Source: Paraburkholderia fungorum (GTDB lineage: Bacteria; Pseudomonadota; Gammaproteobacteria; Burkholderiales; Burkholderiaceae). From it: DNA of 64,000 bases. This document shows, in pieces, positions 11,148-41,359 of this stretch; the stretch's first letter is position 1, and every line of letters begins with the position of its first letter. The DNA is taken from the NCBI RefSeq assembly GCF_900099835.1, contig NZ_FNKP01000002.1:1240001-1304000 (forward strand). The letters run 5' to 3'. A model generated the notes under the pieces. The model had not been told where the DNA came from. It ran no database searches and was given only the letters and a program-made list of their open reading frames with translations. The position numbers were made by a program, and so were the translations under genes.

Positions 11148-12104
11148 ATGGGGAAACTGGACTGGTATCTGAACGTCAACCTGAAGGTGCGGCATCTGCG
11201 CCTGCTGGTTGCCGTTTACGATTTCCGAAATCTGCGTCAGGTCGCATCCAATTCATACATCACGGTGCCGGCGGTATCGAAGGCACTCGGCGATATCGAG
11301 CGGGCCCTGGGGGTCAAGCTGTTTGAACGCACGGCGAACGGGCTGCGGCCCACCGCGTATGGCGAAAGTGTGGTTCGGCATGCGCGAATCGTGCTCAGCA
11401 CCCTGAACCAGACCGCTGAAGAAATTCGCGCGCTGCAAACGGGGAGCGCCGGCAAAGTGTATGTGGGAACGTCGCCCATCATGGTGTCGACCATCATGCC
11501 GAAAGCACTCACGCTGCTCAAACAGGACACGCCTCACACCAACGTCGAGATCCGCGAAAACCGCATGGGTGCGCTGGTGCAGGAGTTGCAACGGGGCGAT
11601 CTCGACATGATCGTCGGACGATTGCCGAACAAGTCGGATACCGTCGGCCTGCGTGAGCAGGTGTTGCTCGCGCCGCAGACCAAACTCGTGACCGGGCCGC
11701 TTCATCCGCTCGCCGGTAAAACGAAAGTCGAGTGGTCGGATCTCGAAGAATTCCCATGGGTGCTTCCGCCGGTGGGCTCGCTGCTGCGCGAGCCGATTGA
11801 AAACGCGTTTGCGCGTCATGGCCTCGCCATGCCCTCCAATTACATCGAAACACTGTCGAACCATTTGATCCGCGCATATCTGCAGTTCAACGACGCGATT
11901 GCAATCCATACCGGCGACGTGCTGTACCCCTACGCCGATGTGGGTCCGCTCAACGTGTTGCCGATCGATCTGAAGCTCGTGACGCGTCCGCTCGGTGCGC
12001 TCTGGCGTGACGACAAACCTCTCGCGCCTAGCGCCATGTCGTTGCTGCGCTGTCTCGAACAGGTTTGTTCGGCTGACGTCGCCGTCGCCAATCACGCCGA
12101 CTAG
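11148..12104 (+). CDS. LysR-family transcriptional regulator of the catabolic island
   Basis: About 318 residues with an N-terminal winged helix-turn-helix (residues 14-75; VASNSYITVPAVSKALGDIERALGVKLFERT) and a LysR substrate-binding domain from about 105. The ATG at 11148 follows CCGGAGACAGC; upstream in-frame codons lack a site. It stands between the hydrolase/AllA-like pair and the decarboxylase-LigJ operon, and a 44-bp repeat with a T-N11-A box lies on each side (10681 and 12258). It is the natural candidate to control both units in response to a pathway intermediate. The effector cannot be read from the sequence. Confidence 0.92.
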   Translation: MGKLDWYLNVNLKVRHLRLLVAVYDFRNLRQVASNSYITVPAVSKALGDIERALGVKLFERTANGLRPTAYGESVVRHARIVLSTLNQTAEEIRALQTGSAGKVYVGTSPIMVSTIMPKALTLLKQDTPHTNVEIRENRMGALVQELQRGDLDMIVGRLPNKSDTVGLREQVLLAPQTKLVTGPLHPLAGKTKVEWSDLEEFPWVLPPVGSLLREPIENAFARHGLAMPSNYIETLSNHLIRAYLQFNDAIAIHTGDVLYPYADVGPLNVLPIDLKLVTRPLGALWRDDKPLAPSAMSLLRCLEQVCSADVAVANHAD

Positions 12105-12257
12105 GTTTCGACCGAAACTCGCCCCCGCAAGGGCCGACCGATTTGCCGACGCGCCCTGCGTCGGCGTCGGCCCTGCGTTGTCCTGCCGGACACGCATTCC
12201 ACTGCATTCTTCCTTTCTGCTCCCACCTCGGCGCATCGCGTAGTTGCGTGGGGGGGC

Positions 12258-12301
12258 TTTACCAAACGGTTAACGCAACCGCTCTTTATTTCAATAGACG
12301 G
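12258..12301 (+). promoter_or_regulatory. Copy 2 of the 44-bp regulatory element, upstream of the catabolic operon
   Basis: The left part TTACCAAACGGTTAA is a T-N11-A box with partial dyad (TTACC/GGTTAA). It lies 153 bp after the LysR stop and 120 bp before the TTG start of the first structural gene. The surrounding 12105-12420 has no other supported gene. Similarity to copy 1 is described there. Confidence 0.65.
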
Positions 12302-12420
12302 AAATTGCGCACGGCAAGATCATGTCGTCAACGCGATCACCTGCCTGGCCAGGCCGGCTAGCCTCCGCACCAAGCGGCGACGGCGGGGATCCAGTAAGCC
12401 TATTCAAACAGGAGACACCG

Positions 12421-13395
12421 TTGACTAAAAAAGTCCCGCTCAAAATCGCGATTGCCGGTCACCCGCACACGTCGGCCATTCGCGATGGGGCCATCGAAAT
12501 CGAAGGCGTCGACGCCGAATTCGTCAATGTGCAGCCGCAAATCGGCGCGTTTCGCCGGATGGTGCGTGACCTTGAATTCGACGTTTGCGAGTTGGCGCCG
12601 ACCACTTACATCATCGCTCGCGCTCATGGTGCGCCGTTCGTCGGCTTGCCCATTTTCGTCACGCGCCGCTTCCACCACGGCGGCCTGCTGGTTCGTCCGG
12701 ACGCCGGCATCAAGCATCCGAAAGACCTCGAAGGCAAGAAAGTCGGCGTGCGGGCGTACTCGGTCACGACCGGCGTGTGGACCCGTCAGGTGCTGATCGA
12801 CGAGTTCGGTCTGGATTCGTCGAAGGTCACCTGGGTGGTCGATGACGAAGAACATGTGACGCAACTGAAGCTGCCGGAAAACGTGATTCACGCGCCGGAA
12901 GGCAGCTCGCTTGCCGAAATGATGGCGTCGGGCGAGCTGTCGGCAGGTTTCGCCGGTGCTGCCGGTATCGGCCGAACGGGTGCGCCGACGGGCGGCTGGA
13001 AGGAAGTCGAAGCCGACTACCCGGACCTGCTGCCTAACGCCGCGGAACTCGAAGCCGAATACTACGCACGCACCGGCGTTTATCCGATGCACGGCACGAT
13101 CGTCGTGAAGGATTCGGTGCTGGCCGAGCATCCGTGGATCGCGAAGTCGATTTACGACGCGTTCGCGCAAGCGAAGAAGGAATGGCTCGCGCGTCTCGTT
13201 GCAGGCGAAGCCACCACTGCCAGCGACAGGAACTACCTCGAATTACGCAAGATCGTCGGACACGATCCGCTGCCTTATGGTCTGCGGGAAAACCTGAAGA
13301 CGATTCAAACGCTGGAAGCGACCGCGTTCAAGCAGGGGCTCACGCCGCGACGCATGGATATCGATGAGCTGTTCGTCGATCCACTGGCTGGCTAA
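12421..13395 (+). CDS. 4,5-dihydroxyphthalate-decarboxylase-like protein, paralog 1
   Basis: A 324-residue protein with the periplasmic-binding-protein-II (NMT1-like) fold used by Pht5-type 4,5-dihydroxyphthalate decarboxylases. Family marks are the N-terminal KIAIAGHPHTSAIRDG, FRRMVRDLEFDVCELAPTTYIIARAHG, RRFHHGGLL, and KKVGVRAYSVTTGVWTRQVL. It starts at TTG 12421, since AGGAGACACCG lies directly upstream; longer in-frame starts have no such site. There is no signal peptide, which argues for a cytoplasmic enzyme and against an ABC binding protein. A second paralog lies at 17873. Two such genes in one operon suggest two decarboxylations or two substrate specificities, which is inference. Confidence 0.75.
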   Translation: MTKKVPLKIAIAGHPHTSAIRDGAIEIEGVDAEFVNVQPQIGAFRRMVRDLEFDVCELAPTTYIIARAHGAPFVGLPIFVTRRFHHGGLLVRPDAGIKHPKDLEGKKVGVRAYSVTTGVWTRQVLIDEFGLDSSKVTWVVDDEEHVTQLKLPENVIHAPEGSSLAEMMASGELSAGFAGAAGIGRTGAPTGGWKEVEADYPDLLPNAAELEAEYYARTGVYPMHGTIVVKDSVLAEHPWIAKSIYDAFAQAKKEWLARLVAGEATTASDRNYLELRKIVGHDPLPYGLRENLKTIQTLEATAFKQGLTPRRMDIDELFVDPLAG

Positions 13396-13481
13396 GGCGC
13401 TGCGACCGCACGATTACCGCAACAAGCTGGATAGGTCCGGAGTCAGCGCTGAAGCGCTAACACCGGTCGACAGGAGACACC

Positions 13482-14507
13482 ATGATTATCGATTGCCACG
13501 GTCACTTCACGACCGTTCCCGCTTCGTTCCGCGCGTGGCGCGCGAAGCAGGTTGAATTTGCCAACGACCCCGCCAACGCACCGTCGCTCGACGGCGCACG
13601 TGTGAGCGACGACGAAATCCGCGAAGCCATCGGCAACGGTCAACTGAAGCTGCAACGCGAACGCGGCAGCGACCTCACGCTGTTCTCGCCGATCGCTGGC
13701 CTGATGAGCCACCACCTCGGCAACGAACGCACCAGCCTCGAATGGGCCCGCGTATCGAACGACCTCGTGCATCGCGTGACCGAACTGTATCCGGACAACT
13801 TCGCGCCGGTCTGCCAGTTGCCACAATCGCCGGGCGTCGCGCCTGCGAACAGCGTCGCCGAATTGCGCCGTTGCGTCGAGGAACTGGGCTTCGTCGGCTG
13901 CAACCTGAACCCGGACCCGAGCGGCGGCTACTGGACCGGCACGCCGGTGACGGACCGCGAGTGGTATCCGATGTACGAAGCGCTCGTCGACCTCGACGTG
14001 CCCGCGATGATCCACGTCGCTGCATCGTGCAACCCGTGTTTCCACGGTACAGGTGCCCATTATCTGAACGCGGACACGTCGGTGTTCATGCAGATTCTGC
14101 AATCGGATCTGTTCAAGGATTTCCCGACGCTGCGTCTGGTGATTCCGCACGGCGGCGGCGCAGTGCCTTATCACTGGGGCCGTTATCGCGGCATGTCGCT
14201 GGAAATGCGCGACCGTCCGCTCGAAGGTCTGCTGAACAACATCTTCTTCGACTCGTGCGTGTATCACAAGCCGGGTGTGGAACTGCTGACCAAGGTGATT
14301 CCGTCGGACAACGTGCTGTTCGGCTCGGAAATGATCGGCGCGGTTCGCGGCAAGGATCCGGCAACGGGTCAGTACTTCGACGACACGAAGCGTTATATCG
14401 ACGCGTGCGAGGCACTCTCGGAAGAAGATCGCTACAAGATTTTCGAGGGCAATGCACGTCGCGTGTATCCGCGACTCGATGCACGCCTGAAGGCGCAGGG
14501 CAGGTAA
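13482..14507 (+). CDS. ligJ: 4-oxalomesaconate hydratase (LigJ)
   Basis: A 341-residue amidohydrolase-superfamily hydratase, identical in length to Sphingobium LigJ as I recall it. LigJ adds water to 4-oxalomesaconate to give 4-carboxy-4-hydroxy-2-oxoadipate in protocatechuate-4,5-cleavage and gallate breakdown. The zinc ligands known for LigJ are conserved in place: His6 and His8 (DCHGH), His178 (MIHVAASCN) and Glu283 (GSEMIGAVRG), with His223 (IPHGGGAVPYHWGR). Long blocks such as NLNPDPSGGYWT, GAHYLNADTSVFMQ and EGNARRVYPRLDA follow the family. The start has AGGAGACACC. No ring-cleavage dioxygenase gene is nearby, so how its substrate arises is unknown. Confidence 0.92.
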   Translation: MIIDCHGHFTTVPASFRAWRAKQVEFANDPANAPSLDGARVSDDEIREAIGNGQLKLQRERGSDLTLFSPIAGLMSHHLGNERTSLEWARVSNDLVHRVTELYPDNFAPVCQLPQSPGVAPANSVAELRRCVEELGFVGCNLNPDPSGGYWTGTPVTDREWYPMYEALVDLDVPAMIHVAASCNPCFHGTGAHYLNADTSVFMQILQSDLFKDFPTLRLVIPHGGGAVPYHWGRYRGMSLEMRDRPLEGLLNNIFFDSCVYHKPGVELLTKVIPSDNVLFGSEMIGAVRGKDPATGQYFDDTKRYIDACEALSEEDRYKIFEGNARRVYPRLDARLKAQGR

Positions 14508-14551
14508 GCGCGAGCAGCAGCGCCGTGCATCCACAAGAGACAGAGGAACTT

Positions 14552-15439
14552 ATGGCTTCATCAATCGTTGATATTCACCCGCACATCATCTCCGATAACG
14601 AAACGCTGTATCCGCCGGCACCGTTGTTTGGCAAGCGTTCGGACTGGTCGCAGGAGCGTCCGAGCACGGTCGAAACATTGATTGCTTCGATGGATGCGGC
14701 AGGCGTCGCGAAGGCGGCTGTCGTGCATTCGTCGACCACGTATGGCTTCGACAACAGCTATGTGCTGGACGGTTGCGCGAAATACGCGGACCGCCTGGTA
14801 GCCGTAGGTTCGATCGATGTATTGCAGGCGGACGCGCCCAAGCTGATTCGTGACGCGGTCGAACGCGGGCTCGCGGGCCTGCGTCTGTTCACGGGCGGCA
14901 GCACGAAAGACTTCGACCCGAGCGAACTCGACGATCCGCGCTCGTTCGCTGCATGGGAATTGTGCGGCGAACTCGGTCTGCCGATGTGCATCCAGACCGG
15001 CCCGATCGGCTTGCCGCAAGTGACCGCGCTCGCGAAGCGTTTCCCGAACGTCGCGATCATCCTCGATCACCTGGCTCGTCCGGATGTTCTCGATGGCGCA
15101 CCGTATGCAAAAGCGCAAAGCCTGTTCGATCTCGCGCCATTCCACAACATCTATTTCAAGCTCACGCCGCGCATTTTCGGCGATGTGAAGAAGGAAAAGG
15201 CCAGCGCGGAAACGTTTTTCCCGCGCGTGGTTGAGGCTTTTGGCGCGAAGCGGCTGGCGTGGGGCTCGAACTACCCGACGTCGCCGGGAACGCTTGCCGA
15301 AATTCTCGCAACCGCGCAAGCAGGTCTTGCAAGCGTGAGCGAAGAAGATCGCGAATGGATCTTCGGCAAGACAGCATTGCAACTGTATCCGGCTCTGGTT
15401 TCGGATGCACTCAGCACGCAAAACAAGGAACTGGCATGA
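14552..15439 (+). CDS. Amidohydrolase-2 family hydrolase (LigI-like group)
   Basis: A 295-residue TIM-barrel metal-dependent hydrolase. The N-terminal metal motif is D7-I-H9-P-H11; other landmarks are GLAGLRLFTGG near 108, PMCIQTG near 145, VAIILDHLARPD near 167 and LAWGSNYPTSPG near 232, the last providing the C-terminal Asn/Asp region. The group includes 2-pyrone-4,6-dicarboxylate lactonase LigI and related lactonases and decarboxylases. A LigI-like role beside LigJ would be consistent, but LigI itself differs in its N-terminus, so the substrate is not assigned. GAGGAACTT precedes the ATG. Its stop overlaps the aldolase start by ATGA. Confidence 0.85.
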   Translation: MASSIVDIHPHIISDNETLYPPAPLFGKRSDWSQERPSTVETLIASMDAAGVAKAAVVHSSTTYGFDNSYVLDGCAKYADRLVAVGSIDVLQADAPKLIRDAVERGLAGLRLFTGGSTKDFDPSELDDPRSFAAWELCGELGLPMCIQTGPIGLPQVTALAKRFPNVAIILDHLARPDVLDGAPYAKAQSLFDLAPFHNIYFKLTPRIFGDVKKEKASAETFFPRVVEAFGAKRLAWGSNYPTSPGTLAEILATAQAGLASVSEEDREWIFGKTALQLYPALVSDALSTQNKELA

Positions 15440-16293
15440 GCGACACCCGCCTCAACAGCATCATTCGCGCCTTCGAATCGGGCGAGACTGCGTACACCGC
15501 GTTTTCGAAACTGGACAAGCAGAACGCAATCGAAATGAGCGATGCGCCGTACGACGGCATCGTCTTCGAAATGGAGCACAACCCGTACGACGTGTCCGCT
15601 CTCGGCGACGCATTGCAGTACATGCTGAACCGCAAGCAGATCGCCGAGTCCGGTTCGGTGGCTCCGCGTGTGACGCCGATTGCGCGCATCCCCGCGAACG
15701 GTGTCGAGATGAATCAGGCGTTTGCGAAGCAGGTGCTCGATCGCGGTGCTTACGGTGTCGTGTGGCCGCACGTCGCGACCGTCGAGCAGGCATATAACGC
15801 AGTCGCATCGTGCCGCTATGCACGTCCGAAAAATGCGCCGCTGTACGAACCGAAGGGCGCACGCGGCGACGGTCCCGCAACGGCCGCGCGTTACTGGGGC
15901 TTGAGCATGGCCGACTACTACAAGAAGGCCGACGTGTGGCCGCTCGCCCCCGAAGGCGAAATCCTGGTCGGCCTGATGTGCGAGAGCACCGAAGCCATCG
16001 ACAACCTCGACGATATCCTGTCGAACGTGCCGGGCATCGGCTTCATCCTGATCGGCGAGGGCGACCTCAGCCAGCAACTCGGCCTGCCGCGTCAGTACGA
16101 GCATCCCGAAGTGCTCGACGCGATGCGCCAGATCGTCGAGACCTGCCACAAGCACAACGTGGTGGTCGGCAATCCGCACACGACCGCGAAGAATCACGAC
16201 CGTCTGGTCAAGGAAGGCTACCGCTTCCTGATGTCCGCGCCGCAACGCAGCTATGGCGTGGTCGGTGCAGCACGCGAGCTGGCGGGGTATTAA
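15436..16293 (+). CDS. HpcH/HpaI-family class II aldolase
   Basis: A 285-residue pyruvate-type aldolase (HpcH/HpaI/citrate lyase beta fold). Visible are FEMEHNPYD near 47, a VVWPHVATVEQAYNAVASCRYA helix near 110-130, ILVGLMCES with the metal-binding Glu near 180, and ILIGEGDLSQQLG with the metal-binding Asp near 212. Such enzymes cleave 4-hydroxy-2-oxo acids to pyruvate plus an aldehyde or oxo acid. In classical 4,5-cleavage pathways the product of LigJ is cleaved by LigK, which is from another family, so this gene may replace LigK. Coupled with the preceding gene (ATGA) and directly followed by the ThDP enzyme start. Confidence 0.88.
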   Translation: MSDTRLNSIIRAFESGETAYTAFSKLDKQNAIEMSDAPYDGIVFEMEHNPYDVSALGDALQYMLNRKQIAESGSVAPRVTPIARIPANGVEMNQAFAKQVLDRGAYGVVWPHVATVEQAYNAVASCRYARPKNAPLYEPKGARGDGPATAARYWGLSMADYYKKADVWPLAPEGEILVGLMCESTEAIDNLDDILSNVPGIGFILIGEGDLSQQLGLPRQYEHPEVLDAMRQIVETCHKHNVVVGNPHTTAKNHDRLVKEGYRFLMSAPQRSYGVVGAARELAGY

Positions 16294-17844
16294 ATGAACG
16301 GAGCCGAAAGCCTGGTCCAGACGCTGACAGCGCAGGGCGTCGATATCTGTTTCGCGAATCCCGGCACGTCGGAGATGCACTTCCTGAAGGCGCTGGAGAA
16401 TCCGGCGATGCGCAGCGTGCTGTGCCTGTTCGAAGGCGTCTGCACGGGCGCAGCGGACGGCTACTACCGGATGAAGGGCACGCCCGCGTCCACGCTGCTG
16501 CACCTGGGGCCGGGCCTCGCGAACGGGCTGGCCAACATCCACAATGCGAAGCGTGCATCGTCGGGGATGGTCAACATCGTGGGCGAGCATTCGGCTTCGC
16601 ATCTGAAGTACGATCCGCCGCTCACGTCCGATATCGAAGGGCTCGCGCGTCCGTTGAGTCACTGGGTGCGTCGTGTGGAGTCGTCGCATACGGTCGCGTG
16701 GGATGTGGCCGCTGCGGTGTCGAAGGCGAGCGAACACGTCGGCCAGATCGCGACGCTGATCCTGCCGGGCGATGCATCGTGGCAGGAAGCGGGTGAAGCG
16801 GTCGTGCCTTCGCGTTCAATGACGGCACCGAAAGCAAAAGCGCCTGACGTCGCCCGCGTCGAGCACATTGCGAAGGTGCTGCACTCGGGCGAGCCGACGC
16901 TGATCGTGCTCGCCGGTCACTCGACCCAAGGCCGTGCAGTCGAACTCGCGGGCAAGCTCAAGGCGGCCACCGGCTGCCGTATCGCGACGCAGTTCTTCAG
17001 CGCGCGGATCGAGCGCGGTGCAGGGCGCGTGACGCTCGAACGCATTCCGTATGCGGTCAATCAGGCGGTCGACTATCTGAAGGGCTTCAAACACATCATC
17101 ACGGTGGAAACCACCGAGCCGATCGCGTTCTTCAGTTATCCGGACAAACCGAGCCTGCTGAAATCGCCGGGTACCAGCGTGCATGAACTGGTCGAAATCG
17201 GCGAGGACGGTGTTGCAGGACTGGAGATGCTGGTCGAAGCCGTGGGCGCATCGAACGCGAAAGCCGTGCTTCAGCAACGCGCCGATTCCACGCCGCCGAC
17301 CGGCGCACTCGGACCCGCCAGCATCGCGCAGGCACTCGCCGCTGCGCTGCCGGAGAACTGCATCCTCGTCGACGAATCGCTGACCACGGGCCGCGAAACG
17401 ATGGGCCTGACCGTCGGCGCGGCGCCGCACGATCTGATCAACAACATGGGCGGCTCGATCGGCTACGGCACACCGGTTGCCACCGGCGCGGCGCTTGCGT
17501 GTCCGGACCGGCGCGTGTTCTGCATGGTCGGCGACGGCAGCGCGATGTACACGATCCAGTCGCTGTGGACCCAGGCGCGCGAGAACCTGAACATCACGAC
17601 GATCATCTTCGCGAACAACAGCTACGCGATCCTGAAGGCCGAGTACGCGAACATGGGCGCGGGTGCGCCGGGCGAGCGCGCGCTGGCGATGATCGACATC
17701 GACCGTCCGCGCATCGACTGGCTCGCGATGGCGAAAAGCATGGGCGTGCCCGCTGTTTCCGTCGATACCGCCGAAGCATTCCACCAGGCCATGGCGAACT
17801 CGGTGAACGAGTCGGGCCCGTGCCTGATCGAGGTCAGGCTGTAA
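16294..17844 (+). CDS. Thiamine-diphosphate-dependent decarboxylase/synthase (acetolactate synthase-like)
   Basis: A 516-residue member of the ThDP family. The cofactor-activating Glu47 lies in FEGVCTGAADGYYR, and the Mg-ThDP motif runs from Gly413-Asp-Gly415 to Asn441-Asn442 (GDGSAMYTI to FANNSYAI). A FAD-type middle domain is poorly marked. The family includes acetolactate synthase, benzoylformate decarboxylase and phosphonopyruvate decarboxylase. Its ATG abuts the aldolase TAA with no gap, so the two products are likely made together. A role in decarboxylating or condensing the 2-oxo acid released by the aldolase is a reasonable inference; the C-terminal half resembles biosynthetic large subunits but no small subunit gene is present. 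Confidence 0.85.
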   Translation: MNGAESLVQTLTAQGVDICFANPGTSEMHFLKALENPAMRSVLCLFEGVCTGAADGYYRMKGTPASTLLHLGPGLANGLANIHNAKRASSGMVNIVGEHSASHLKYDPPLTSDIEGLARPLSHWVRRVESSHTVAWDVAAAVSKASEHVGQIATLILPGDASWQEAGEAVVPSRSMTAPKAKAPDVARVEHIAKVLHSGEPTLIVLAGHSTQGRAVELAGKLKAATGCRIATQFFSARIERGAGRVTLERIPYAVNQAVDYLKGFKHIITVETTEPIAFFSYPDKPSLLKSPGTSVHELVEIGEDGVAGLEMLVEAVGASNAKAVLQQRADSTPPTGALGPASIAQALAAALPENCILVDESLTTGRETMGLTVGAAPHDLINNMGGSIGYGTPVATGAALACPDRRVFCMVGDGSAMYTIQSLWTQARENLNITTIIFANNSYAILKAEYANMGAGAPGERALAMIDIDRPRIDWLAMAKSMGVPAVSVDTAEAFHQAMANSVNESGPCLIEVRL

Positions 17845-17872
17845 ATCCAATCAAGCTTAAGGACCCCCATCA

Positions 17873-18766
17873 ATGACAACGAACTTCACCGGCGTGCCGA
17901 CGCTGCGCACGAACCTGGCCGACTACGCGGTCACGAAAGCGATGAAAGACGGCCGCGTCAGCTCGGATATCGTCAACCTCGACTTCTGCGGCCCGACGCC
18001 CGCGCACAACGGCTTCAAGGCGATGGTGCGCGAGAATAAATTCGACGCGGGCGAACTCGCGATCGTCACGTTCCTGCAGGCAAAGGCGTACGGCAAGCCG
18101 TACGTGCTGCTGCCGACGCCGATCTCGGGCCGCTTCCAGCATCACTGTGCGGGCTACAACCTCGACTTCGGTCACCTCGATCCGAAAGATATCGAAGGCA
18201 GGAAGGTCGGTGTGCGCACGTACACGCAGACCACGGCGCTGTGGATTCGCGGCATTCTGCGTCACGAATACGGCGTCGATCTCGACAAGGTGCAATGGAT
18301 GACGCTCGGCGACGGTCACCTCGCCGAGTACCGCGATCCGAACAATTGCGAGCGTTTGCCGGCCGGTTCGTCGATCCCGGAGATGATGCTCAAGGGTGAA
18401 CTGGCCGCTGCGCTGCTCGGCGAAGACATGCCGAAGGACGAGCGCGTGCGCACGCTGGTGCCGAACGCGCAGGCGGCGGCGAAGGACTGGTTCGCGCGCG
18501 AAAACGTGGTGCCGATCAATCACATGTTCGTCGTGCACGAAGACGTGTCGAAGCAGCGCCCGGATGTGGTGCGTGAGTTGTACCGGATGGTGGTCGAGAG
18601 CCGCAATCTGGCTGAAGGCGTGCCGGCCGTGTTTCCGCCGATCGGGCTTGAAGCGAACCGCAAGGGATTGCAGCTTGCGATTGACTGGGCGCTGGATCAG
18701 AAGATCATCGATCGTCGCTTGAGCGTCGACGAGTTGTTCGACGATGTAACCGGCAGCCTCGGGTAA
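17873..18766 (+). CDS. 4,5-dihydroxyphthalate-decarboxylase-like protein, paralog 2
   Basis: A 297-residue protein of the same fold as the product at 12421 but clearly diverged. Marks are FKAMVRENKFDAGELAIVTFLQAKAYGKPYVLLP, RFQHHCAGYN, RKVGVRTYTQTTALWIRGILRHEYG and, near the C-terminus, INHMFVVHEDV. The stretch FLQAKAYGKP is more like the characterised phthalate enzymes than paralog 1. No signal peptide is seen. AAGGACCCCC lies ahead of the ATG. It is followed by a 17-bp hairpin before the transporter gene. It probably decarboxylates an aromatic or unsaturated polycarboxylate; a solute-binding role is less likely without an export signal. Confidence 0.78.
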   Translation: MTTNFTGVPTLRTNLADYAVTKAMKDGRVSSDIVNLDFCGPTPAHNGFKAMVRENKFDAGELAIVTFLQAKAYGKPYVLLPTPISGRFQHHCAGYNLDFGHLDPKDIEGRKVGVRTYTQTTALWIRGILRHEYGVDLDKVQWMTLGDGHLAEYRDPNNCERLPAGSSIPEMMLKGELAAALLGEDMPKDERVRTLVPNAQAAAKDWFARENVVPINHMFVVHEDVSKQRPDVVRELYRMVVESRNLAEGVPAVFPPIGLEANRKGLQLAIDWALDQKIIDRRLSVDELFDDVTGSLG

Positions 18767-18804
18767 TCGCCGATGTCGTGTTGGATGCATCTGTGTTGAA
18801 TTGA

Positions 18805-18843
18805 ACCGGCCGGATGGCGACGTCGAGTCGCCATCCGGCCGGT
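18805..18843 (+). terminator. Perfect 17-bp hairpin between the decarboxylase and the MFS gene
   Basis: Bases 18805-18821 pair without mismatch with 18827-18843 around the loop GTCGA; the core is CCGGCCGGATGGCGAC. No U-tract follows. It lies 38 bp after the decarboxylase stop and 73 bp before the transporter start, so it could lower transporter expression, protect the upstream mRNA 3' end or mark an RNA-processing point. Confidence 0.5.
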
Positions 18844-18916
18844 ACGTCGCATTGAACAATGCGTGCGGGCAGCAAGCTGGCGTCAAATATAAAGAAAATC
18901 GACTGGAGATGAAGTA

Positions 18917-20209
18917 ATGGAGACAACGCGACAACAACGGCTGCGCCCCGAGAATCGCTGGGGCATTCTCGTGCTGCTCGCGCTCGGGTTAATGATTTCA
19001 TTCGTGGATCGCACGAGCATGTCGGCTGCGCTCGCGGATCATCATTTCATCAGCGAATTTACGCTGACACACGTGCAGCGCGGATGGCTAGGCTCAGCCG
19101 TGTTCTGGTCGTACGGTTTGCTGCAGCTGCCGATGGGCTGGCTGGTCGATCGCTATGGCGTGAAGTGGCCTTACTCGATCTGTTTCGTGATCTGGTGTCT
19201 CGCGGCGGCCGCCACCGGCATGGTCGCGACACTTTCCGCGCTGATTCTCGTGCGTCTTCTGATCGGCGCAGCTGAAGCCGTGGTCGTTCCTGCCACTTAC
19301 CGTTATCTCGCGAATAATTTCAAGGAGACGCAGAAGGGCACGGCGCTCGGAATCTATTCGATCGGCGGAAAAATGGGACCCGCCCTCGGTGCGCCGATTG
19401 CGGCATGGCTGATCGTGTCGAACTCGTGGAAGGTGATGTTTGTCGTCACTGGTCTGGTCGGGTTGATCTGGCTGTTGCCGTGGTTGCTGATGCTGCGCAA
19501 CGACTTTCCTTCTAAAGCGGAACTGGTAGCGGCGAAACAGCGCGCTGCGTCGGTGCCGCTCGGCAATCTTCTGGCGAGTCCCGTGGTATGGGGCGGCCTT
19601 ATCACTAACTTCTGCTATAGCTATTTCTCTTTCTACTGCATGACGTGGATGCCCGCTTATCTGGTCGAGCAGCGCGGTCTTTCGTTGAGGCAGTCAGGCT
19701 TATATACGTTCTTCAGCTTCATCGGCATCGCAATCGTCGCGGCACTCGCAGGCTTCGCCGCAGACCGGTTGATCGCGCGCGGATACGACGCGGTCGTTGT
19801 GCGCAAGTCGTTTATCGTTGCAGGGTTCATTGGCGGCACGACTGTGCTGCTCGGTGCTTATGCACCGTCGCCGCAACTGGCTTTGTTCTGGAATGTCGTG
19901 TCGCTGTCGCTGCTCGGTCTCGTGACGGCGAACAATCTGGCGCTCGTCAAACTGACGCTGATCCCGAAGCAGGCGGTCGGATTGAACACGGGCTTGCAGC
20001 AGGTGGCGACCAGCCTGGCGGGTGGCGTTTCCGCGAGCCTGTCAGGCTGGCTGCTCCATGTGGGCGGCAGTTACACGTGGCCGATGCTGGCTATTTTCGT
20101 ATTCCTGCTGCTCGGCGCGACCAGTACGGTGGTGCTGTTGCGGCGTAAATGGGCGCCGAAGGTCAATGACGATGGCTTTGAAAAACAGCCGGGCGAGGTG
20201 ACGGTATAA
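18917..20209 (+). CDS. MFS transporter (anion:cation symporter type), likely importer of the pathway substrate
   Basis: A 430-residue major facilitator with 12 hydrophobic segments. Marks are the N-terminal GLMISFVDRTSMSAALADHH region, LGSAVFWSYGLLQLPMGWLVDRYGVKWPYS (motif A after helix 2), and GKMGPALGAPIAAWLI near 155. This is the ACS/phthalate-hexuronate branch, whose members import organic acids such as phthalate, galactonate and tartrate. CTGGAGATGAAGTA precedes the ATG. It ends the catabolic run that begins at 12421, and the presence of phthalate-type decarboxylases fits an aromatic or polycarboxylate substrate, which is inference. Confidence 0.88.
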   Translation: METTRQQRLRPENRWGILVLLALGLMISFVDRTSMSAALADHHFISEFTLTHVQRGWLGSAVFWSYGLLQLPMGWLVDRYGVKWPYSICFVIWCLAAAATGMVATLSALILVRLLIGAAEAVVVPATYRYLANNFKETQKGTALGIYSIGGKMGPALGAPIAAWLIVSNSWKVMFVVTGLVGLIWLLPWLLMLRNDFPSKAELVAAKQRAASVPLGNLLASPVVWGGLITNFCYSYFSFYCMTWMPAYLVEQRGLSLRQSGLYTFFSFIGIAIVAALAGFAADRLIARGYDAVVVRKSFIVAGFIGGTTVLLGAYAPSPQLALFWNVVSLSLLGLVTANNLALVKLTLIPKQAVGLNTGLQQVATSLAGGVSASLSGWLLHVGGSYTWPMLAIFVFLLLGATSTVVLLRRKWAPKVNDDGFEKQPGEVTV

Positions 20210-20549: not shown

Positions 20550-20577
20550 AAAAGAAAGCCCGCGCGAATGGCGGGCT
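20550..20577 (-). terminator. Rho-independent terminator of the DUF1479-binding protein operon
   Basis: On the minus strand AGCCCGC (20577-20571) pairs with GCGGGCT (20563-20557) around a 7-nt loop and is followed directly by TTTCTTTTT. It lies 111 bp after the stop of the binding-protein gene at 20689. Confidence 0.8.
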
Positions 20578-20688
20578 AAATCCATATCGAGAAGACATGG
20601 AGGAGACGTTCTTTAAACCCTTTCTCATTGCCTGCAAATGTCTTCTTACAGCCATTTAATTTCGTGAGACCGATTCAAAAGATCACAC

Positions 20689-22010: not shown

Positions 22011-23255
22011 TTACAGATCGAATCCGAGTTGAGCTTTACCGAGAGGCGTCAGATCTTCGGCAGTAGCACGGCCCGCAAAGTCGACTTCGAAATGATCGGT
22101 CGGGAAATCCGGCGGGCTCTTTCCTTCGAGGAAACCCGGCAACTGGCGCTTCAGATATTCGTCGTTCTTGGCGCACGCGGGCGCGGACGCGATGTACATC
22201 ACGTTGCTATAGCCTGCACCTCGGTGCGCGTCTTCCACGGCGTGGATCACGTCGCTGTGCCAGAACACCGTGTCGCCAGCCTGCATGTGTGGAATCGACG
22301 ACAGCGCCTCGAAAAGCGGCGCATGAAACTCCTGCTTGATCGAGAGCGCGCGGCCGGGCATCGCGCCGCACAGGTCGTCGTCGGCGACATCGTCCTGAAG
22401 GGCGCGCAACAGGATATACGCCATCGAATTCGCAATCGGCACGAGTTGCAGCGTGCCGTCGCCGGGGCCTTGCGGCGTCAACGCGGTCCAACCCTGGAAC
22501 GTGCGGAACATCGAGCACACGGCGGGCGACGCAATCTCTTCGACGTCCGGGCGGAACGCGGCATCGAACGGATCGTACTGCCGCCAGTTGCCATCGAACA
22601 CGTGCCGGTAAACCTGGCGGAAGTTGCCCTCGATCCATCGCTCGACCGAGCCGCCGTCGCAATGCGCGGACAGCCCCAGCGACTCGGAACCGGGCGGCCG
22701 CCGACGCATCCGGTCCGCGTAAGCCGGCACGCGCTCCGGGTCGAAATGCACCCGGCCTTCGCTCTCATGACGCCACAACCGGTTCAGAAAGACGCGAGCC
22801 GCCGTCAACGATGGTGCCTGACGTGCGAGCACCTGCGGCTTCGACCAGTACACGCCGTAAATCTGCGGCTTGCTCGATGCAAGCTGGCCGAAGTATTTAT
22901 CTTCGGCGCGGGTTTTCAGGCGCGTATCCAGGTCGTTGCGTTCGACGTACTCCGCGATATCGCGGTCCCATCCTTCCACCAATGAACGGTCGAACACGTT
23001 GCGGATCACACACGCGCCGCGCGTCTTGACGAGTTCGATTTGCGCTGCGGTCACACGCTGCTCCGCGATATCGGAAAACTGGATTTCGGGGATCACGTTT
23101 TCGCCGCGGCTGCGTTGCGCGGCGATTCTGCTGGCTTCGGCGCGGATCGCTTCATCGACTTGCGCGAAAACCTCGCGGTAGTTCGGAAGCCGCTCGCGAA
23201 GTTCCTGTTTGGCCTGCCGGATGGCTGCCGGCAAATCGTCAATTTTGAGTGCCAT
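22011..23255 (-). CDS. DUF1479 (YbiU-like) family protein, putative 2-oxoglutarate/Fe(II)-type oxygenase
   Basis: A 414-residue protein matching the DUF1479/YbiU family length. Visible marks are [18 protein letters not shown] near 135, [19 protein letters not shown] near 190 with a His-x-Asp pair, and [15 protein letters not shown] near 348 with a downstream His. The H-x-D ... H layout and the jelly-roll-like spacing suggest an iron and 2-oxoglutarate dioxygenase fold; the activity is unknown. Start at 23255 after AAAAGGAGACAACC. Divergent from an AraC regulator and cotranscribed with a sugar-binding protein, so a role in modifying or using a sugar-like compound is plausible. Confidence 0.85.
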
Positions 23256-30446: not shown

Positions 30447-30454
30447 CGGCGCCT

Positions 30455-30610
30455 CTTCGGGGAGTAGCCGCCTTGGACGAAATGTTCAGGGGCTCGCGTC
30501 AACATACTTGGAGCGGTCGTCAGACCGTCCATGGCGCGCGCAGCAATCGCCTGGCAAGACCGATGACTCACACTCCCACCAGCCGGGTCGCGGGAGTGCG
30601 TGTCATCGTG
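30455..30610 (+). ncRNA. yybP-ykoY (manganese) riboswitch
   Basis: All the hallmark blocks occur in order: GGGGAGTAGCC at 30459-30469, GCGTCAACATACTTGG around 30496-30511, and TGGCAAGACC at 30552-30561, as in the E. coli mntP and alx leaders. The 3' part forms a long hairpin (GATGAC...CACTCCC, 30562-30577, with GGGAGTG...GTCATC, 30592-30607). It sits between a consensus promoter and an UPF0016/GDT1 gene, whose family is a known partner of this riboswitch in proteobacteria. Binding of Mn2+ is expected to switch the manganese exporter on, either at termination or at translation; the hairpin lies 37 bp before the ATG and has no U-tract, so translational control is a fair guess. Confidence 0.93.
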
Positions 30611-30643
30611 ATTTGACCGTGCGGCCCGGTTATAACAAACCCC

Positions 30644-31234
30644 ATGCAATCATTCCTCGTATCCACAAGCGTTGTCGGTCTCGCTGAGATCGGCGACAAG
30701 ACCCAGTTGCTGTCTCTGGTTCTTGCGGCGCGCTATCGCAAACCTATCCCTATCGTGCTCGGCGTGTTCGTCGCGACGCTGATCAATCACGGCTTCTCGG
30801 GTGCGCTCGGCGCGTGGCTTGCCAGCATCATCAGGCCGGAAATCATGAACTGGGCCGTGGTGGCGTCTTTCGCGGTCATGGCCGTGTGGATCCTGATTCC
30901 GGACAAGCTCGATGATGCCGACGCTCTACCCGTCAAAGATTCAATGGGCGTGTTCGGAACAACGGCAATCACGTTCTTCATCGCGGAAATGGGTGACAAG
31001 ACCCAGATCGTGACGGTGGCGCTTGCGGCGCGATTCCACGAATTCTTCGGCGTCGTGGCGGGCACGACGCTCGGCATGATGCTGGCGAACGTCCCGGTTA
31101 TCTATCTTGGCCACAAGTTTGCCGACCGCTTGCCGACCAAAGCGGTTCATATCCTGGCGGCGCTTATTTTCGTGGTACTCGGCGGGCTCGCACTGCGCAC
31201 GGCGCTGTATCCGGAAACTCACTCGATGTTCTGA
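30644..31234 (+). CDS. UPF0016/GDT1 (TMEM165-like) manganese exporter
   Basis: A 196-residue inner-membrane protein with six hydrophobic segments in two repeats. Each repeat carries the family signature: EIGDKT at residues 15-20 and EMGDKT at 115-120. Bacterial members (MneA in Vibrio, MntX in Neisseria) export Mn2+ and protect against manganese toxicity. The length of about 190 is right. Its leader is the manganese riboswitch at 30455, so substrate and regulation agree. A convergent DUF5666-like gene follows after a hairpin. Confidence 0.94.
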   Translation: MQSFLVSTSVVGLAEIGDKTQLLSLVLAARYRKPIPIVLGVFVATLINHGFSGALGAWLASIIRPEIMNWAVVASFAVMAVWILIPDKLDDADALPVKDSMGVFGTTAITFFIAEMGDKTQIVTVALAARFHEFFGVVAGTTLGMMLANVPVIYLGHKFADRLPTKAVHILAALIFVVLGGLALRTALYPETHSMF

Positions 31235-36752: not shown

Positions 36753-37919
36753 TTACGCCGACAACTTCTGCATCTCCGCAAACAGATCGGCCTTCCCTTC
36801 AAAGCCGATGCCGGGCAGATCGGGCATCGTGATATAGCCGTTTTCGACCTTCACGCCGTCGGGGAATCCGCCATACGGCTGGAACAGATCGGGATAGGAT
36901 TCGTTGCCGCCCAGTCCCAGACCCGCCGCGATATTCAGCGACATCTGGTGTCCGCCGTGCGGAATGCAACGGCTCGGCGACCACCCATGCTGACGCAACA
37001 TGTCGAGCGTCCGCAGATATTCGACCAGACCGTAGCTCAGCGCGCAGTCGAACTGCAGCCAGTCGCGATCCGCGCGCATGCCGCCGTAACGGATCAGATT
37101 GCGGGCGTCCTGCATCGAGAACAGGTTTTCGCCGGTTGCCATCGGCTTGTCGTAGTAATTGCGCAGCGTGGCCTGCAATTCGTAGTCGAGCGGATCGCCG
37201 GCCTCTTCGTACCAGAACAGATCGTATTGCGAGAGCGCCTTCGCATATTGAATCGCCGTGTCGAGATCGAAGCGGCCGTTCGCATCGACGGCCAGCTTCT
37301 GACCGTCGCCGAGCACGCTGAGGATCGAGTCGATGCGGCGCAGATCTTCGTCGAGCGACGCGCCGCCGATCTTCTTCTTCACGACCGTATAGCCGCGATC
37401 GATATAGCTGCGCATTTCGTCTTTCAGCTTGCCGTGGTCCTGGCCCGGATAGTAGTAGCCGCCCGCCGCGTACACGAAAATCTTGCGATCGGGCTCGCCG
37501 TTGCCATAACGGTCAGCGAGCAGCTGGAACAGCGGCTTGCCTTCGATCTTGGCAACCGCGTCCCACACGGCCATGTCGATCGTGCCGATGGCGACCGAGC
37601 GCTCTCCATGACCGCCGGGCTTCTCGTTCGTGAACATGGTCGCCCAGATCTTGTGCGGATCGAGGTTATCGCCTGCGTCGTTGACGAGGCTGGCAGGATC
37701 GGCTTCGAGAAGGCGCGGAATGAAGCGCTCGCGCATCAGCTTGCCCTGGCCGTAGCGGCCGTTGGAATTGAAGCCGTAACCGACCACCGGCTTGCCGTCG
37801 CGGATCACATCCGTCACCACGGCGACGAGACTCAGCGTCATCTTGCTGAAGTCGATATAGGCATTGCGGATCGGCGAGCTGATCGGAACGGTCTTTTCGC
37901 GGATTTCGACGATTCTCAT
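36753..37919 (-). CDS. tarD: D(-)-tartrate dehydratase (enolase superfamily)
   Basis: A 388-residue mandelate-racemase-fold dehydratase that converts D-tartrate to oxaloacetate. It follows the Bradyrhizobium japonicum TarD sequence along its full length as I recall it (one residue shorter), with catalytic Lys in VVKKKIGG (181-183), metal ligands Asp212 (VDANGR), Glu238 (WYEE) and Glu264 (TGEN), and catalytic His321 in CIPHGGHQMSLN. Blocks SSPIRNAYIDF and GYGFNSNGRYGQG are diagnostic. It is divergent from a LysR gene with an inverted repeat between them, which probably makes it tartrate-inducible. No tartrate transporter adjoins. Confidence 0.9.
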   Translation of the reverse strand: MRIVEIREKTVPISSPIRNAYIDFSKMTLSLVAVVTDVIRDGKPVVGYGFNSNGRYGQGKLMRERFIPRLLEADPASLVNDAGDNLDPHKIWATMFTNEKPGGHGERSVAIGTIDMAVWDAVAKIEGKPLFQLLADRYGNGEPDRKIFVYAAGGYYYPGQDHGKLKDEMRSYIDRGYTVVKKKIGGASLDEDLRRIDSILSVLGDGQKLAVDANGRFDLDTAIQYAKALSQYDLFWYEEAGDPLDYELQATLRNYYDKPMATGENLFSMQDARNLIRYGGMRADRDWLQFDCALSYGLVEYLRTLDMLRQHGWSPSRCIPHGGHQMSLNIAAGLGLGGNESYPDLFQPYGGFPDGVKVENGYITMPDLPGIGFEGKADLFAEMQKLSA

Positions 37920-38000
37920 GACGGTGTCTCCTGAGTGTTGAGCACGTTTTGCAGACTTGGGGCTGCGATGGACCGTAGCTTATCCGCGAAATGGCGGCCT

Positions 38001-38045
38001 ATAATTCGCCTCAATTCATATCACTTTTTACCTTTGGCGAATAAT
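38001..38045. promoter_or_regulatory. Inverted repeat in the tarD-lysR intergenic region
   Basis: ATAATTCGCC (38001-38010) and GGCGAATAAT (38036-38045) are inverted with one mismatch and a 25-bp spacer. The left arm overlaps a TATAAT (38000-38005). The right arm ends four bases before the LysR start. This fits an autoregulatory LysR site covering both promoters. Confidence 0.45.
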
Positions 38046-38048
38046 CGA

Positions 38049-39008
38049 ATGACTCTCGACGCCGGATCGGATTTCGAATTTTTCATTCTCCTCGCCCGGC
38101 TCAAGAGCATGTCGGGCGCGGCGCGCGCGCTTGATCTCACGCCGCCTGCGGCGACCAAGCGTCTGGGCCTGATCGAGCAGAAACTGGGTGTGCGCCTCGT
38201 CAACCGGACTACCCGCAGTGTCAGCCTGACGCCCGAGGGCGAGACCTATCTGCGCTACGCGACGCAAATCGTCGGTCAGGTCAGGCAGATGGAAGAAGAG
38301 ATATCTGGAGCACGGCCCGATCCCCAAGGGCTGTTGCGCGTCAATGCAACGCTCGGCTTCGGACGCACGACCATCGCGCCGCTGGTGTCGGAGTTCGCGA
38401 AGCGCTTTCCTCAAGTGGAAATCCAGTTCGAAGTGACCGATCGGCCCATCGATCTGGTCGCGGATGCGTTCGATCTGGCGATCCGTTTCGGCGAGCTTCC
38501 CGACAGCCGTCTGAGTGCGCGGCGGATCATGAGCAACCGGCGTTTCTTCTGCGCGTCGCCCCGATACCTGGAGCGGTTCGGCGTGCCGGAGCGCGTCGAG
38601 GATCTGGCGCGCCACCGTTGCATCGTGCATCGTCAGAACGATGAAGCGTATGGCGTATGGAGGTATCTGCAAGGCGACCGGATCGAGGCGCTGAAAGTCA
38701 AAGGCGCGCTGTCGAGCAACGATGGCGATATCGTGCTGCGCTGGGCGCTCGACGGACACGGCATCCTGATCCGCTCAGAATGGGATCTCGCGAAATATGT
38801 TCAGAGCGGCCGCTTGAAACTGGTGCTGCCGGAGACGCCGCTGCCGTCCGCCGATCTCTTTGTCTACTATCCGAGCCAGCGCAACCAGACCGCGCGTGCG
38901 CGGGCCTTCATCGACTTTCTGATCGACCACTTTCAGGCGCCGTTCGTGCCGGTCGAAACGGGCGCTCTGATCTACGCGCAGAAAAAGAAAGCGGCGAAGA
39001 AGACCTGA
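38049..39008 (+). CDS. LysR-family regulator, likely of the tartrate dehydratase gene
   Basis: A 319-residue LysR protein starting at ATG 38049. The helix-turn-helix covers 10-65 (SMSGAARALDLTPPAATKRLGLIEQKLGVRLVNRTTR), and the effector domain runs to the end (GLLRVNATLGFGRTTIAPLVSEFAKRFPQVEI at 96-127). The C-terminus is Lys-rich (QKKKAAKKT). A longer frame from 37935 has no site and would overlap the inverted repeat. Divergent from tarD, so its effector is presumably tartrate or a relative. Confidence 0.9.
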   Translation: MTLDAGSDFEFFILLARLKSMSGAARALDLTPPAATKRLGLIEQKLGVRLVNRTTRSVSLTPEGETYLRYATQIVGQVRQMEEEISGARPDPQGLLRVNATLGFGRTTIAPLVSEFAKRFPQVEIQFEVTDRPIDLVADAFDLAIRFGELPDSRLSARRIMSNRRFFCASPRYLERFGVPERVEDLARHRCIVHRQNDEAYGVWRYLQGDRIEALKVKGALSSNDGDIVLRWALDGHGILIRSEWDLAKYVQSGRLKLVLPETPLPSADLFVYYPSQRNQTARARAFIDFLIDHFQAPFVPVETGALIYAQKKKAAKKT

Positions 39009-39059
39009 GTTTGTTAAGCCCCTCAGGTCAGCTTCACCGCTCTGCCCGCTTTATCGAAC

Positions 39060-40067
39060 TTATCGAACCAGAAATCCGTAAGTCAAAGGGTCTCTGGAAT
39101 CGATGATCCAGTTGGCAAACCCGCAGACGAAAGCGTTGCCCTCCACCTCTGGAATGACCGCCTTGAATTCGCCGACGGTCGTCTCGCTCAGCACACGTCC
39201 CTTGAACACCGTGCCGATAATCGACTCGTTCACCAGCGTTTCGTCCTTCCCCAACTCCCCGCGCAGATAGAGTTGCGCGACGCGGCCGCCGGTGCCTGAA
39301 CCGGTCGGCGAACGATCCACCTCGCGGTCCGCGAAAACGCAGCAGTTGGCCTGCGTTGAACCCGCGTGCCGCGGCGCGTTCGCGATGATGGTGCCGTAAA
39401 TGTGGTTGATCTCAGGAATGTGCGGATGCTCGACCGGAAACGCCAGATTGGCCGCCGCCTTCACCTCCGCCCCAAAGCGGATCAGTTCCTCCACCGACGA
39501 CTCGCGCACTTCGAGCCCGTGCGGCTCGCCATCGGTATAGAAGTAGAACGCGCCGCCGAACGCGATGTCGCCGGTTACCTTGCCGAACGACGGCGTGTCG
39601 ACGGTCACGTCCCGCTTCCAGATGAACGACGGAACGTTGACGAAGCGCACGTTGCCGGCGTGCTCGCCGTCCCACTGCACGAACGCTTCGATGAACCCGC
39701 ACGGCGCGTCGATCCCGATGCGCGTCTCGGGAACCTCGCGCTGCACCCATCCCAACTCGACGGCCGCAGTCGACAGCGCGATCACACCGTGGCCGCAGTG
39801 ATCGCTATAGCCCTCGTTATGCAGAAAGATGATGCCGAAATCGGCGTTCGGGCTGACCGGCTCGGTCAGATAGCCGCCGTACATGTCCGCGTGGCCGCGC
39901 GGTTCGAACATCAGCGCGCGGCGGATGTCGTCGGCGTTCTCTCTCAGCCACGCGCGCCGCTTGACGATCGTGTCGCCCGGCAGCCTCGGCAAACCGCTCG
40001 TGACGATGCGGAACGCTTCGCCGCCGGTGTGAACTTCAACAGTCGAGATGGTGCGGGTAATTTTCAT
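39060..40067 (-). CDS. Trans-3-hydroxy-L-proline dehydratase (proline racemase family)
   Basis: A 335-residue proline-racemase-fold enzyme. The first catalytic position is Cys91 (SDHCGHGVIAL), but the second is Thr255 (RSPTGSGTGG), where racemases and epimerases have Cys. Cys/Thr is the pattern of trans-3-hydroxy-L-proline dehydratases, which give pyrroline-2-carboxylate. The next genes fit: a binding protein and an ornithine-cyclodeaminase-type pyrroline-2-carboxylate reductase. The order matches the Azospirillum LhpH-LhpI type of pathway. The start at 40067 is conventional. The alternative, a 4-hydroxyproline epimerase, is unlikely without the second Cys. Confidence 0.88.
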   Translation of the reverse strand: MKITRTISTVEVHTGGEAFRIVTSGLPRLPGDTIVKRRAWLRENADDIRRALMFEPRGHADMYGGYLTEPVSPNADFGIIFLHNEGYSDHCGHGVIALSTAAVELGWVQREVPETRIGIDAPCGFIEAFVQWDGEHAGNVRFVNVPSFIWKRDVTVDTPSFGKVTGDIAFGGAFYFYTDGEPHGLEVRESSVEELIRFGAEVKAAANLAFPVEHPHIPEINHIYGTIIANAPRHAGSTQANCCVFADREVDRSPTGSGTGGRVAQLYLRGELGKDETLVNESIIGTVFKGRVLSETTVGEFKAVIPEVEGNAFVCGFANWIIDSRDPLTYGFLVR

Positions 40068-40121
40068 GTTTGCTTCGGGAAGTCGAAGGACGGCTGCATC
40101 GAATGTGCGCTCCGTGGTCGC

Positions 40122-41243: not shown

Positions 41244-41359
41244 ACGAACTCCAGGTAGACCAGGAAGGAACCCGACCATTGGGGTCGGGCCGGTGCACGG
41301 CATGACTTCGGTAAAGCAGACCACTGACTACTGACACTTCACGACCCACGGACCCACGA

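Follow-up and report, generated by a model that had tools for sequence, protein, structure and literature searches.

A LigJ-containing operon of Paraburkholderia fungorum as a candidate dioxygenase-free paralogue of an extradiol cleavage operon

We examined a window of 64,000 nucleotides from Paraburkholderia fungorum (NZ_FNKP01000002.1, positions 1,240,001-1,304,000, forward strand), which holds an operon of predicted catabolic genes for a LigJ-like hydratase, two proteins resembling 4,5-dihydroxyphthalate decarboxylase (Pht5) and an HpcH/HpaI-family aldolase. In our reading of the open reading frames, positions 11148-20209 of the window hold a LysR gene followed by seven genes on the same strand, S1-LigJ-AH2-HpcH-ThDP-S2-MFS (ThDP, thiamine diphosphate; MFS, major facilitator superfamily):

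11148-12104, + strand: LysR-type regulator; best model PcaQ (TIGR02424), 200.5 bits, below the cut-off of 303.8
12421-13395, + strand: S1, the first Pht5-like (4,5-dihydroxyphthalate decarboxylase-like) protein; PDB 9jp7, E 3.9e-45
13482-14507, + strand: LigJ-like amidohydrolase (4-oxalomesaconate hydratase family), of a diverged subgroup; PDB 2gwg, 500.7 bits, aligned over the whole length (residues 1-341)
14552-15439, + strand: AH2, a second amidohydrolase, distantly LigI-like; PF04909, 114 bits; 2ffi, E 1.5e-5
15436-16293, + strand: HpcH/HpaI-family aldolase; PF03328, 83 bits
16294-17844, + strand: ThDP enzyme resembling benzoylformate decarboxylase and acetolactate synthase; NF005760, 735.4 bits, cut-off 363
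17873-18766, + strand: S2, the second Pht5-like protein; 9jp7, E 1.5e-18, profile E 2.8e-20
18917-20209, + strand: MFS transporter of galactonate-transporter type, probably an importer; PF07690, 178.9 bits; TIGR00893, 179.4 bits, below the cut-off of 395

From S1 to MFS the intervals are 86 and 44 bases, an ATGA overlap (AH2/HpcH), zero (HpcH/ThDP), 28 and 150 bases. S1 probably starts at a TTG codon downstream of an AGGAG; its longest frame begins at 12322. A first-pass annotation had described seven closely packed genes that form an unusual catabolic set, with an HpcH aldolase in the place of LigK, and frames, strand, overlap and zero gap were all confirmed, as was the character of the set. 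Its further statement, that no ring-cleavage or ring-hydroxylating dioxygenase is present, holds in the window for the two families covered by model searches, PF02900 (LigB family) and PF00903 (glyoxalase family), which have six and 30 matches in the genome; the closest PF00903 match, a frame of 188 amino acids, starts 619 bases past the window end. The other frames of the window were inspected by eye rather than with intradiol or Rieske models.

The annotation had also allowed that the oxygenase may lie elsewhere, and this was borne out in the same genome. An amidohydrolase search of the 8.58-Mb genome identified a second copy of the operon on contig 2, at about 2.687-2.696 Mb (locus L001), whose proteins share 94% (S1), 99.7% (LigJ), 89% (AH2), 99.6% (HpcH), 99% (ThDP), 99% (S2) and 64% (MFS) identity with those of the window. 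This sister copy carries one extra gene, between MFS and HpcH (L001 6164-7150), for a class III extradiol dioxygenase-like protein of the LigB family, and its complete order reads S1-LigJ-AH2-MFS-dioxygenase-HpcH-ThDP-S2. The protein passes PF02900 (46.7 bits, cut-off 26.3) and aligns with LigB at an hhalign probability of 99.4, whereas the class III extradiol models stay under their cut-offs (NF009901, 56.4 bits against 290). Its top database relatives, where named, are called protocatechuate 3,4-dioxygenase or DODA-type extradiol dioxygenase.

The LigB-like protein keeps H12 and E282, but Gln98 replaces the His that LigB and gallate dioxygenase have at the matching position, in 173 of 173 sequences. 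We take the His and Glu residues concerned to be iron ligands (two His and one Glu). The same Gln occurs in 120 of the 120 best-listed relatives of a 38%-identical protein on a Polymorphobacter plasmid (L130), and Gln98 is thus a mark of the whole LigB-family branch as judged from these alignments, not of the operon alone. This branch, with Gln for the iron-ligand His, includes proteins that one source, naming the kin of the Polymorphobacter protein, calls OH-DDVA oxygenase or 3-O-methylgallate 3,4-dioxygenase. Distant LigB-like proteins (33-39%) on Polymorphobacter and Aminobacter plasmids are flanked by a LigJ-family amidohydrolase and RraA/LigK-like aldolases.

To place both copies among their relatives, one genome per species was scanned with two HpcH peptide patterns, which returned 218 relatives, and the best 80 loci were analysed with their flanks. 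HpcH presence and conservation of its VFEMEHN stretch, including Glu45 in 80/80 loci, are partly by construction of these search patterns. Several genomes contribute at least two loci, which are therefore not independent, and gene calls outside the window operon, on which the caller was trained, may be incomplete. Counted above a floor of 58% identity (40% for LysR), S1 accompanies the aldolase in 72 of the 80 loci, LigJ in 74, AH2 in 75 and S2 in 76, so their association is not due to chance. Each locus was typed by the gene immediately preceding HpcH, a LigB-like gene defining type A and AH2 type B. There are 48 loci of type A, 26 of type B, two of type C and one with an HpaD-type gene; two meet a contig end, and one, with poor gene calls (L094), has no called HpcH. 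In the search for the seven-gene order in other genomes, which the annotation had advised, the gene set recurs, with the LigB-like dioxygenase before the aldolase in 48 of the 80 loci and AH2 there in 26.

Type A and type B also differ in their neighbours. A TolB-like propeller (29 of 48 type-A loci vs 1 of 26 type-B loci), AraC (28 vs 1) and a PF10282 lactonase (22 vs 3) go with type A, whereas LysR (19 of 26 vs 1 of 48), TctA-like (18 vs 2) and TctC-like (17 vs 0) genes go with type B. The Tct names were assigned by eye; the example of TctC reaches 23.2 bits, short of the Pfam cut-off of 27, and the TctA example is unnamed by NCBIfam. A neighbour of 176 amino acids in 15 type-B loci matches no Pfam family. 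The window LysR is 48-49% identical to the LysR preceding type-B operons in relatives. Both types occur together in five genomes, on one contig in P. guartelaensis, P. nodosa and P. tropica; for another four type-B loci, the downstream flank includes a LigB-like gene. An Acidovorax plasmid carries a type-A operon in which a TctC gene occupies the MFS slot.

Across genomes, the operon's HpcH is found in 39 of 144 of the genus, that of P. fungorum included, and a ThDP search with flanks recovered the operon in 4 of the 39 other nearest genomes (one type A, three type B). The LigB-like gene was present in 13 of 24 operon-bearing genomes searched; a class-wide search, with thin sampling, found it in 1 of 369, the P. 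fungorum genome itself. One of the operons is in a record labelled Pantoea sp. 18069 (L051), whose HpcH clusters with Burkholderiales rows, which may reflect either transfer or a mislabelled assembly.

The LigB-like gene is not the only extradiol gene at its position. Sphingomonas sp. OK281 has an HpaD-type extradiol dioxygenase at the same slot (1f1r, E 1.7e-42; TIGR02295, 246.4 bits, below 321.4), with two His and one Glu kept in the alignment, which are presumably its iron ligands. That the same slot is filled by extradiol enzymes of two unrelated families suggests that the pathway proceeds through extradiol cleavage.

Taken together, these observations suggest, with a probability of roughly 0.55, that the window operon is a paralogue, without the dioxygenase, of a conserved operon for extradiol (meta) cleavage that is present in complete form in the same genome, and encodes a half-pathway. 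In the complete form, the dioxygenase would open a catechol- or pyrogallol-type aromatic acid, and its ring-fission product would be isomerised, decarboxylated or both by AH2 and the Pht5-like proteins. Hydration by the LigJ-type enzyme would then give a 4-hydroxy-2-oxo acid, which HpcH would cleave to pyruvate and a second oxo compound; in operons that keep it, the ThDP enzyme might convert a 2-oxo acid by decarboxylation into an aldehyde, the substrate of an aldehyde dehydrogenase. For the window copy, the same or a related intermediate may come from the sister dioxygenase or enter the cell with its ring already open. Gallate and protocatechuate are probably not the substrate.

Several points weigh against this proposal. 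The functions of all the operon proteins are predictions, none of them assigned through a known activity; AH2 lacks the usual Asp; Gln98 leaves iron binding by the LigB-like protein unproven; and the genome holds other gallate/protocatechuate-type gene sets. Additionally, among 19 genomes chosen for type B, the LigB-like dioxygenase was present in 10 and not found in nine (three of them metagenome-assembled genomes). Eight of these nine have another LigB-family gene and one (G050) has none; the nine would need another dioxygenase or another substrate.

We put somewhat under even odds on a broader claim, namely that the operons represent a hitherto undescribed extradiol route for some aromatic acid that is neither gallate nor protocatechuate, using a diverged LigJ, two Pht5-type decarboxylases, an Asp-less amidohydrolase and HpcH, with the dioxygenase-free sister form serving ring-opened polycarboxylates. 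In searches of an open-access library of papers, which leaves out most subscription journals, we recognised no description of this gene set. In its boldest form, which is speculative, the ThDP enzyme could decarboxylate a LigJ product of the 4-carboxy-4-hydroxy-2-oxoadipate type, with the linked aldehyde dehydrogenase oxidising the result to citrate, either alongside aldol cleavage or in its place.

The type-B form, the window copy included, may instead be a pathway of its own for a polycarboxylate that is imported ring-opened or was never aromatic, with no need of a dioxygenase. We consider this rather unlikely, although the annotation had suggested a non-aromatic polycarboxylate as a possible substrate. 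AH2 directly precedes HpcH in all 26 type-B loci of the 80, TctA-like and TctC-like genes are associated with type B (18/26 and 17/26, against 2/48 and 0/48 in type A), an association only, and a TctC gene can replace the MFS gene even in a type-A operon, that of the Acidovorax plasmid. In the tree of HpcH (81 rows), 22 of the 26 type-B rows fall in two supported clades, 18 in one and four in the other, with four elsewhere. Moreover, the dioxygenase occurs in just 10 of the 19 type-B genomes and was not found in the other nine, suggesting that type B can stand without it. Yet 10 of 19 do have it, no Tct gene was seen in the window, and the window HpcH pairs with its own genome's type-A copy (support 100/90). 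Tct transporters, moreover, import aromatic acids too.

An ordinary gallate or 3-O-methylgallate (oxalomesaconate) pathway with a non-orthologous aldolase is unlikely. Here, the LigB-like enzyme would cleave gallate or 3-O-methylgallate, AH2 would open the pyrone, LigJ would hydrate, HpcH would yield pyruvate and oxaloacetate, and the remaining genes would be accessory. The operon LigJ is indeed nearest to oxalomesaconate hydratases, AH2 is distantly LigI-like, and the dioxygenase branch includes proteins named 3-O-methylgallate 3,4-dioxygenase. The annotation's claim that the LigJ zinc ligands are intact was supported, H6, H8, H178, H223 and E283, presumably the metal-binding residues, being kept in nearly all operon copies; nevertheless, LigJ deviates from four gallate/protocatechuate-type LigJ at 32 columns (one a gap), including R71I, H150Y, S180A and T181A, in a comparison of 75 operon rows with four rows, where one of the 75, from L068, is itself gallate-type and was admitted by the identity floor. 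The window LigJ is 62% identical to the LigJ of the genome's gallate locus (L004). In AH2, Asn240 stands for the usual Asp in 76 of 76 sequences, and AH2 paralogues are alike in this, whereas Asp occupies the position in 2ffi and in the LigI-like protein of L075. A LigI function for AH2 was rejected on this ground, Asn replacing the catalytic Asp; the LigI chain 4dia also has Asn there, but we take it to be an engineered mutant. The gallate explanation would also leave two Pht5-like proteins and the ThDP enzyme without a role.

Furthermore, the genome already has a gallate dioxygenase with LigJ and LigK-like genes (L004) and LigB with LigA-like genes (L124). What reads as a separate hpa operon lies at L123, and at L002 and L003 Pht5-like and AH2-like genes accompany another LigJ-LigK-like pair; the names LigA, LigK and hpa in this genome were assigned by reading. 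The annotation had named a complete LigAB/LigK or gallate dioxygenase set elsewhere that makes the operon redundant as a finding against its reading. The sets at L004 and L124 bear this out in part, but redundancy does not follow: the diverged LigJ, together with the few nonsynonymous changes between the two copies of the operon, indicates that the window operon is probably not redundant with them. On contig 3, L003 also carries a third S1 (12305-13276, 87% identical to window S1) near type-B-style neighbours, the rest of the operon not being in that stretch; LysR, TctC-like, AH2-like and TctA-like genes, as found around type-B operons elsewhere, lie at L003 3464-9152.

The close similarity of the two copies could mean that the window operon is a recent, redundant duplicate from which the dioxygenase was lost and which serves no function of its own. 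We regard this as very unlikely. In its favour, the HpcH-ThDP-S2 stretch is 97.3% identical at the DNA level across 3.35 kb, and the two HpcH pair in the tree at the support given above. The identity is, however, a mosaic: LigJ (97.4%), HpcH (97.7%), ThDP (97.7%) and S2 (96.5%) are nearly alike, whereas S1 (89.3%), AH2 (85.5%) and MFS (66.8%) have diverged. Synonymous and nonsynonymous codon differences, as raw counts and not dN/dS, number 25 and 1 in LigJ, 19 and 1 in HpcH, 27 and 5 in ThDP, 23 and 3 in S2, 67 and 20 in S1, and 71 and 31 in AH2. All frames are open, a LysR of its own precedes the window operon, and 26 other loci share its type-B layout. Such a mosaic would be expected if gene conversion had acted between a type-B operon and a type-A one, an explanation that fits better than recent duplication.

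As for S1 and S2, the annotation had taken them for Pht5-like proteins without signal peptides, and had named proof that they are ABC binding proteins as the finding that would speak against its reading. The first view is supported: 9jp7, a 4,5-dihydroxyphthalate decarboxylase, is the sole significant solved relative of each, and no signal-like N-terminus was seen in either window protein, with N-terminal hydropathies of 0.87 and 0.79 against 1.34-2.10 in eight secreted controls, although 17 TctC controls overlap these values (0.37-2.44). On the other side, S1 scores above the cut-off for PF09084 (NMT1) and PF12974 (Phosphonate-bd), and public records name S1 and S2 ABC or phosphate ABC substrate-binding proteins; at E 0.001, S2 has no match among the Pfam and NCBIfam families. 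A role for both as substrate-binding proteins, which would make the cluster in part a transport locus, is nonetheless highly improbable, given 9jp7, the N-termini and an ABC-ATPase motif in just 1 of the 80 loci by motif scan, so that S1 and S2 are more likely enzymes, as far as such comparisons can tell.

The annotation had placed weight on a ThDP step after the aldolase, a step that some relatives can do without. A ThDP gene was counted in 64 of the 80 loci, three 88-amino-acid remnants included, and in 13 loci HpcH and S2 lie 0-131 bases apart with no called ThDP gene above 60% identity between them. A search at E <= 1e-100 found no ThDP relative in 5 of the 11 genomes of ThDP-less loci; of the other six, four have relatives of 48-52% identity elsewhere only, a fifth one of 49%, and one a 75% copy. 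Since the enzyme is missing in some relatives, we rejected it as a required step; it is an accessory and probably late one. Its closest solved structures are benzoylformate decarboxylases (E 1e-36). Of the 80 loci, 29 have an aldehyde dehydrogenase gene nearby; for the one scanned, models of the 2,5-dioxovalerate and HpaE types come out on top, with scores well short of their cut-offs. In Paraburkholderia sp. SG-MS1, one of the five genomes without a ThDP relative, three loci (L027, L028 and L029) with identical HpcH rows and 88-amino-acid ThDP remnants lie on three contigs.

Several known pathways come close to the operon. The 4,5-cleavage enzymes for gallate and protocatechuate are given in PMC12314914 as GalA/DesB or LigAB, LigI, LigU/GalD, LigJ/GalB and LigK/GalC. 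In common with this oxalomesaconate pathway, the operon has a hydratase of the LigJ family, a class II-type aldolase, a distantly LigI-like amidohydrolase and, in the complete copy, a dioxygenase of the LigB family. It differs in having an HpcH-fold aldolase for LigK and no recognised LigU/GalD, in the missing catalytic Asp of AH2 and the divergence of LigJ, and in the addition of two Pht5-like proteins and a ThDP enzyme. Extradiol cleavage, a hydratase and an HpcH/HpaI-family aldolase also characterise the homoprotocatechuate (hpa) pathway, and the relatives add an HpaD-type dioxygenase in one case and, in the two type-C loci, HpaG-like and HpaH genes (HpaH 407.9 bits, cut-off 351.5), alongside a LigI-like protein that retains the Asp. 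In contrast to that pathway, the operon's hydratase is LigJ-type, and an HpaI identity for HpcH was rejected (TIGR02311, 81.2 bits against a cut-off of 368.8), the match being to the fold family PF03328.

The OH-DDVA (LigZ-LigY) route, a branch of lignin biphenyl catabolism, likewise has a LigZ-branch dioxygenase beside a LigJ/LigY-family amidohydrolase, but the operon's amidohydrolase is LigJ-like (500.7 bits) rather than LigY-like (194.3 bits against 5vn5), and no LigX or LigW was recognised in it. Finally, S1 and S2 recall phthalate 4,5-dihydroxylation, the Pht5 pathway; the operon differs in having two such proteins, and neither a phthalate dioxygenase nor a dihydrodiol dehydrogenase was recognised in it.

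If our proposal is right, a common aromatic-acid route of soil Burkholderiales and sphingomonads has been overlooked, and operons alike in all but the dioxygenase offer a natural way to separate the steps before and after ring opening. In two plasmid records, parts of the operon go under the names protocatechuate 3,4-dioxygenase, ABC transporter substrate-binding protein, phosphate ABC transporter substrate-binding protein and acetolactate synthase large subunit. Pathway reconstruction from such labels would be led astray.

Elsewhere in the window, a Betaproteobacteria toxic small RNA (RF02278, 57.2 bits, gathering threshold 50) lies on the minus strand at 20550-20608, some 340 bases past the MFS gene. 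A PF07350 (Gig2-like) protein at 22011-23255 (479.5 bits), of the family that we take to be the former DUF1479, adjoins a gene that reads as sugar-binding-protein-like. Genes of the MR_MLE enolase, proline racemase and ornithine cyclodeaminase families span 36753-42283, with a binding-protein-like gene, also named by reading, between them. At 30452-31234, a yybP-ykoY manganese riboswitch (RF00080) stands directly 5' of a GDT1-family transporter gene (PF01169), an ordinary arrangement for manganese exporter control.

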